Of a DNA stretch of 64,000 bases, positions 59,903 to 60,769 are shown in pieces (position 1 is the stretch's first letter; every line of letters starts with the position of its first letter). Source of the stretch: Methanolobus sp. (GTDB lineage Archaea; Halobacteriota; Methanosarcinia; Methanosarcinales; Methanosarcinaceae). The position numbers and the translations under genes were made by a program. The stretch is taken from positions 47,897 to 111,896 of the forward strand of contig JARVGJ010000006.1 in the NCBI GenBank assembly GCA_029762595.1, given 5' to 3'. A model generated the notes under the pieces. The model worked only from the letters and a program-made list of their open reading frames with translations, was not told where the DNA came from and made no database searches.

Positions 59903-60318
59903 TTAAACATAAAAGGGGGAATGATTATTTTTCACAAGGAACCTGACAAATTCAGGGCTGAGTCTTGTTTCCTGTATCATCTTGTCTTCTATTTCCTCGT
60001 CTGAAATACCGTCTTGTTTTTATTGTGCGATACGGTCATAAACGCTCTGGGAAACGTCGGAGTATTCGTTTATATCTTTTCTGTGTCCCCATACTTCGCC
60101 TTCAAGGAGTTCGATTCCCTGCACCCTGGGAACATCTTTGCAGATGTTGAGATGGTTCTCTTGTAGGAACTGGGTATGTGGAGTGCTTTTACAGTGGGGC
60201 ATTTTTGGACAAGTGCGAAGATATCCGTGTTTGAAGGCCTGAATGCGAGGTGGACGATTTGCTCATTTGGACCAAGCGTTTCTATCTCATCTTTTGAACT
60301 TACAACTCTTATTTTCAT
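59903..60318 (-). pseudogene. DUF1699 family protein, frameshifted and with an in-frame stop
   Basis: Frame 1 MKIRVVSSKDEIETLGPNEQIVHLAFRPSNTDIFALVQKCPTVKALHIPSSYKRTISTSAKMF, shift to QGIELLEGEVWGHRKDINEYSDVSQSVYDRIAQ, TAA, then KQDGISDEEIEDKMIQETRLSPEFVRFLVKNNHSPFYV*. Confidence 0.85.
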
Positions 60319-60573
60319 TCATACCACCTTATTATATTTATATGAGCTACGGTAATTTGTGGCTATGTTTCGAATATATTTAAAGTTCTTGTATATACAG
60401 TATTACTTGGAAATGACAGTTTACTATCATTAGAACACGAGTATTTCTTGGGGATAAATGCAATCGTAGCACTGAAGGTAGGCGATTAGAATATTATAAA
60501 GAATATAATGTTTTTATTATTTGATTACATCTATAGCGAAGTGTTTATATGTTAACGGCTTTAACTATGTTTA

Positions 60574-60769
60574 GGTGAGGTGTGCGGTCTAATTTTACCA
60601 CCCCCCAACCCCCACTTATTCCTTCCGCACACCTCTTATATGTATTTGATATGGGGGAAACGGCATAGTCTGGTATTTGTGTTATACTAGGCTGTGAAAA
60701 AAAGATCAGGTTCACCAGGAGAAATTAGGAGTATATCGTAGAACGCATTAGTAGAACCTGTTTTTTTTT
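60574..60769 (+). ncRNA. candidate structured small RNA B (C-rich loop)
   Basis: TATA-like TTTATATG 60544-60551; perfect 11-bp stem GAGGTGTGCGG/CCGCACACCTC (60577-60587/60625-60635); GGGGG at 60653-60657; 13-bp hairpin 60664-60676/60684-60696; 7-bp stem 60707-60713/60754-60760 followed by T9. Confidence 0.6.

Follow-up and report, generated by a model that had tools for sequence, protein, structure and literature searches.

To our knowledge, structure and covariation have been used to define very few archaeal small RNA (sRNA) families, and targets are known for only a handful of archaeal sRNAs. Nine highly conserved intergenic sRNAs, induced by cold (8 °C) and sharing a "cold box" motif that precedes their promoters, have been described in Methanolobus psychrophilus R15 (Li et al. 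2015, PMC5378194). In M. mazei, sRNA162 and sRNA171 are ~190 nt long, with stable 5' fragments of 55 to 65 nt (PMC3510493). sRNA154 of the same organism has an operator for NrpR (GGTA-N6-TACC), and its nt 4-66 form a leaderless ORF (PMC3177094, PMC11456600). M. mazei sRNA41 masks the ribosome binding sites of several mRNAs. Two bacterial systems use C-rich sequence in a related way: Xanthomonas sX13, whose C-rich loops act on G-rich mRNA sites (PMC3771888), and Listeria LhrC, a multi-copy, G-poor RNA whose C-rich sites pair with G-rich mRNA sites (PMC4132741).

Here we describe an RNA locus in a 64,000-nt stretch of Methanolobus sp. DNA ("the window"; GenBank assembly GCA_029762595.1, contig JARVGJ010000006.1, positions 47,897 to 111,896). 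The hairpin at this locus is almost certainly one copy of a multi-copy, uncatalogued family of structured RNAs found in most Methanosarcinales, among both the methanogens and their methane-oxidising relatives. By computation it is a real structured small-RNA gene, and the function set out below is a proposal. The elements named in the original prediction were all present on direct reading (Table 1); the near-palindrome, the broken DUF1699 gene and the second family member had gone unremarked there.

Table 1. Features of the RNA locus, its divergent neighbour and a second family member in the window
Feature	Position	Strand	Remark
TATA box TTTATATG	60544-60551	+	Read directly
Near-palindrome GTTAACGGCTTTAAC, 15 bp	60551-60565	+	Directly 3' of TATA box, before start site
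Conserved RNA core (5' hairpin)	60574-60636	+	Start site inferred from TATA distance
Stem of 5' hairpin, GAGGTGTGCGG with CCGCACACCTC	60577-60587 with 60625-60635	+	Read directly
Loop, 37 nt, U-rich then C-rich, contains ACCACCCCCCAACCCCCAC	60588-60624	+	Read directly
GGGGG tract, proposed pseudoknot partner	60653-60657	+	Read directly
Second hairpin, 13 bp, CATAGTCTGGTAT with ATACTAGGCTGTG	60664-60676 with 60684-60696	+	
Weak 3' hairpin, CAGGTTC with GAACCTG	60707-60713 with 60754-60760	+	
T9	60761-60769	+	Read directly
DUF1699 (PF08004) gene, divergent, broken by frameshift and in-frame stop	59925-60318	-	Lower boundary approximate
Second family member	9111-8990	-	TATA 9111-9104; 14-bp stem 9080-9067/9003-8990

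Folded alone and compared with shuffled sequences, the 5' hairpin (60574-60638; z = -5.59) and the second hairpin (60660-60702; z = -5.91) were each more stable than all shuffles (0/200 as stable), and the full 196 nt reached z = -1.85 only. The second hairpin has a minimum free energy of -16.6 kcal/mol on the plus strand versus -2.8 kcal/mol on the minus strand; its three wobbles are G.U on the plus strand only, as had been predicted. Polarity is not given by the 5' hairpin alone; it follows from the TATA box, from the order of the U-rich and C-rich halves of the loop, and from the relatives. The terminator-like sequence of the original prediction is present, but its hairpin is weak (z = -1.82) and missing from the paralogues; positions 60707-60769 are a possible transcript end of the window copy. 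The first 63 nt fold as a single hairpin with a 37-nt loop. This differs from sRNA162, which has three stem loops and a target site in the linker (nt 63-88), with two small stem loops at nt 1-62 and then a 39-nt unstructured target-binding linker (PMC3510493). It also differs from sRNA154: the operator-like element of the window copy reads GTTAACnnnTTTAAC, and the hairpin has no ATG after the inferred start. A short ORF 3' of the hairpin was rejected as a conserved gene (by eye, it is not conserved between the window and its paralogue C9).

Two paralogues were identified by BLAST in the same genome (2.43 Mb, 58 contigs), at C9:46394 (E = 9.6e-17) and C11:147689 (E = 2.4e-8), with matches spanning the promoter and 5' hairpin and nothing more downstream. 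A homologue in another genome of the genus (G015) was found by BLAST, before any model was built (E = 4e-7). A covariance model of the window copy and these three (R1) picked up additional members across most genomes of the genus and also beyond it, in other genera. A model of 45 members (R2; cut-off E <= 0.05 per genome) matched 163 of 186 Methanosarcinales genomes, with at most 11 matches per genome and ~9 genomes expected by chance; among the matched genomes are Methanosarcina, an ANME-2 archaeon (MZXQ01000014) and other Methanosarcinales. Against Rfam 15, the window had no match at the gathering score and nothing credible at E <= 10, and 38 loci, nearly all with other members, matched nothing but tRNAs and a single unrelated C/D box; the window sequence had no match in phage records. 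The family is thus new to Rfam and previously uncatalogued, and the original prediction is not refuted by this search. Its reading of the locus as a plus-strand structured RNA that starts near 60574 and exposes a C-rich loop is supported. The spread, which includes cultivable Methanosarcina and Methanolobus, makes the family testable in genetically tractable hosts and would extend it to uncultivated ANME archaea, and the covariance model is ready for annotating archaeal genomes where such genes are now blank. When the R2 search was widened to the class, genomes of another taxonomic family (f7) showed weak matches, roughly one each; these might represent an ancient member present in single copy.

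Members were defined by a TATA box, ~27 nt, a stem of at least 7 bp and a G-poor loop of ~30 to 68 nt, U-rich then C-rich; the window copy has a TATA distance of 29, an 11-bp stem and a 37-nt loop without G. Among the 45 model members, a TATA-like octamer lies 13 to 43 nt before the stem (median, 29). In a set of 80 members, for which counts are approximate because a few rows (L088, L109, L187 and one L079) were mis-registered by script, the octamer lies 15 to 39 nt before the stem (median, ~27), stems are 7 to 15 bp and loops 29 to 68 nt, and loops contain 2.2% G, with 38% U in the first half and 54% C in the second. The loop motif CCCACUCC (CCCACTCC) occurs in 58 of these 80 members and twice in 11 of them, and is common rather than defining; the window copy carries CCCCCACUUAUUCC in its place.

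Two main branches were recognized, type I with GAGGTG stems (as in the window) and type II with GAGCGGG stems. Type II includes a near-invariant copy in the genus, located between the genes for topoisomerase VI-B and an RFC-like ATPase. A third kind has a longer loop with two motifs. Between TATA box and start, the palindrome GTTAACnnnGTTAAC (at least 9 of 12 positions) was found in 23/30 type I members versus 1/15 of type II; across ~0.86 Mb of the same genome, other copies that are perfect or off by one position are rare. The corresponding window sequence, GTTAACGGCTTTAAC, has one mismatch and is a probable operator of a shared transcription regulator. Downstream of the hairpin the paralogues diverge, and the 13-bp hairpin and the terminator hairpin are both missing from C9 and C11; T-runs 3' of members lie scarcely nearer than those on the antisense side. 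The conserved RNA is thus ~63 nt. The 13-bp hairpin and the originally proposed 195-nt extent are confined to the window copy and not supported as elements of the family design, and that length is itself unproven. The pseudoknot is likewise at most a feature of the window copy, because a GGGG tract follows the hairpin within 45 nt in just 3 of the 80 members.

The stem is maintained despite heavy sequence change, with strong compensatory evolution. Standard pairs fill 93.6% of pair cells in alignment A6 versus 68.6% when shuffled, although A6 was fitted to the structure, which favours the signal. Two-sided changes were counted in 104 cells versus 22.9 in shuffles (0/500 shuffles reach this number), and the signal was lost once the partner was shifted by one to three columns. 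Covariation was seen in 11/11 pairs of alignment A5 and 10/11 of A6, and stem words differ while each keeps its own complement (GAGGTGTGTG/CACACACCTC, GAGCGGG/CCCGCTC, GCACGGGTGG/CCACCCGTGC and GGGCATCTGA/TCAGATGCCC). Conservation of the stem with compensatory changes in relatives, which bears directly on the original prediction, therefore also leaves it unrefuted. Compensatory changes alone fit RNA or DNA hairpins, and a multi-copy, hairpin-shaped sequence could in principle be a DNA element, such as a cruciform or a mobile repeat, instead of an RNA gene. We consider this very improbable: nearly all members have a TATA box at fixed spacing before the stem, an operator is in place, and the loop is polarised (U first, C second, no G). 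Moreover, homology among the window, C9 and C11 extends upstream towards the DUF1699 gene, so these loci were duplicated rather than inserted.

The window copy and both paralogues are divergent to a DUF1699 gene, which is intact at C9 and C11; in the window, PF08004 was matched in two frames (E = 6.6e-31 and 7.4e-12). The G015 copy is divergent to two genes for FilR1-like regulators (PF08350). Overall, the divergent neighbour is DUF1699 in 5 members and FilR1-like in at least 6, either kind lies nearby in others, and numerous members have neighbours unrelated to both. DUF1699 itself is a highly conserved, multi-copy family (as many as about a dozen copies in one genome, or more), present in 56 of 60 Methanosarcinales-centred genomes versus 1 of 14 control genomes (M. 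acetivorans); a sequence search against solved structures gave no credible relative. No C-rich hairpin of the family type was found beside 30 DUF1699 genes in three Methanosarcina genomes.

sRNA162 has a comparable layout, being divergent from a conserved protein gene and next to a regulator of the ArsR family (PMC3510493), and the window RNA might be a divergent antisense regulator of its own neighbour, as sRNA162 is for MM2442. The word GGGAGTG, a complement of the loop motif, occurs in four leaders of FilR1-like genes that neighbour type I RNAs (L080, L098, L097 and L010), which amount to two independent cases spotted after many words had been inspected; as a candidate loop target it is only suggestive. 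Self-targeting of the neighbour's leader was rejected as a rule, with no clear preference of the loop for that leader (mean, -11.4 versus -10.7 kcal/mol), and the numerous members with unrelated neighbours point the same way. The cis target of sRNA162 overlaps the RNA by 65 nt (PMC3510493), whereas no transcript overlap is predicted in the window because the DUF1699 promoter, placed from sequence, lies ~200 bp from the RNA start. Regulation of the neighbour is therefore improbable.

The window copy may itself be decaying, because the canonical CCCACTCC is absent, the operator has a mismatch and the DUF1699 neighbour is broken. That it is a paralogue without function in an otherwise functional family is nevertheless unlikely, given an intact TATA box and a perfect 11-bp stem, longer than those of C9 and C11.

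The family probably regulates other genes. The best explanation of the locus, to which we give slightly better than even chances, is a small-RNA gene at 60574-60636 (possibly to 60769) whose product acts in trans as an antisense RNA, through its C-rich loop, on specific G-rich mRNAs. The RNA would be transcribed from the conserved archaeal promoter, with the hairpin beginning at the expected start site. The stem would keep the loop accessible as a reading head for G-rich sites (of the GGGAGUG/GUGGGGG type) in particular mRNAs, and pairing there would lower their translation or stability. A possible ligand of the U-rich half of the loop is an Sm-like or TRAM protein. In type I, the operator-like palindrome and the DUF1699/FilR1-type neighbours suggest that several copies could be switched together.

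Specific antisense targets are preferred because the analogous sX13 and LhrC pair C-rich sites with G-rich mRNA sites; we regard mRNA pairing as the mechanism with about equal chances for and against. The likeness lies in exposed C-rich, G-poor sites, pairing near starts and, for LhrC, several copies. sX13 and LhrC are bacterial, however, and their motifs lie in several stem loops or single-stranded stretches, whereas the archaeal family has a single hairpin whose very large loop is free of G; no sequence relation is claimed.

Binding was assessed by duplex energy and exact k-mers at 713 gene starts from ~0.86 Mb of the same genome. The generic pairing with Shine-Dalgarno sequence suggested originally was not supported: five of six loops from this genome bound starts worse than or like shuffled loops, and C9 slightly better. 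Complements of the motif (7-mers) were found in 2.4% of start regions versus 0.5% of coding windows, a result equalled by 6 of 60 shuffled motifs. Outside family members, AACCCCCACTCCCC has no perfect complement in this genome. Four AATTCCCACTCCCC matches belong to a different repeat, without a matching GC-rich stem around them. This repeat, GAGAATTCCCACTCCCCAA...CTCAATC (L256, L257, L263 and L264; C3, C37 and C44 of the same genome), has a C-rich motif like that of the RNA loops and is perhaps a separate repeat family.

The missing generic complementarity to start regions and the lack of a perfect partner for AACCCCCACTCCCC would also fit a sponge-like, protein-binding RNA, in which the repeated single-stranded ACCCCCACUCCC is a protein recognition site and the copies set the level of free protein. 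Across families the loop motif hardly varies, in contrast to the freely changing stems, and it is doubled in some loops. Against this reading, no candidate protein emerged, the loops of type I are variable and the exact motif is missing from the window copy; we hold this reading to be possible, if on the unlikely side.

Genome G026 (3,072,769 bp), which we take to be M. psychrophilus R15, holds five type I members and three others (~1.2 Mb read directly plus a genome-wide search). Three of the type I copies have a nearly identical AAAATATTTATAGCGACAA, AAAATA(T/G)TTATA..GACAA, before the TATA box, and the type I copies share an upstream element in the alignment; TATAGCGAAGTG, upstream of the window TATA box, resembles TTTATAGCGACAA, the element that precedes many of them. 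The published sRNAs come from a methanogen of the same family and have a common motif upstream of their promoters (PMC5378194). They number nine, versus five type I or eight members in total in G026, and the main text of that paper describes no structure, loop motif or order-wide spread (PMC5378194). The family may overlap with these sRNAs, and the chances that the nine include type I members appear evenly balanced. More speculatively, and with considerable doubt, the paralogous hairpins could form an order-wide regulon in methanogens and ANME archaea, with one C-rich motif, a shared operator in one branch and a single partner (an RNA-binding protein or a class of mRNA sites), linking regulators of temperature or methyl-substrate use (FilR1-like, DUF1699) to translation.

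One type II member (L093, G061:C40) is found 125 nt 3' of cdhD. This gene belongs to the acetyl-CoA decarbonylase/synthase complex, which is a target of M. mazei sRNA41.

The second member in the window belongs to the third kind, with two CCCACUCCC motifs in its loop, and its hairpin is stable against shuffles (z = -5.01). Because R2 alone gives it only E = 0.5, the family is undercounted; this genome has at least seven members. It is kept in 16 of 27 genomes of the genus at 79 to 93% identity and adjoins the gene of a 673-aa membrane protein resembling H+-pyrophosphatase.
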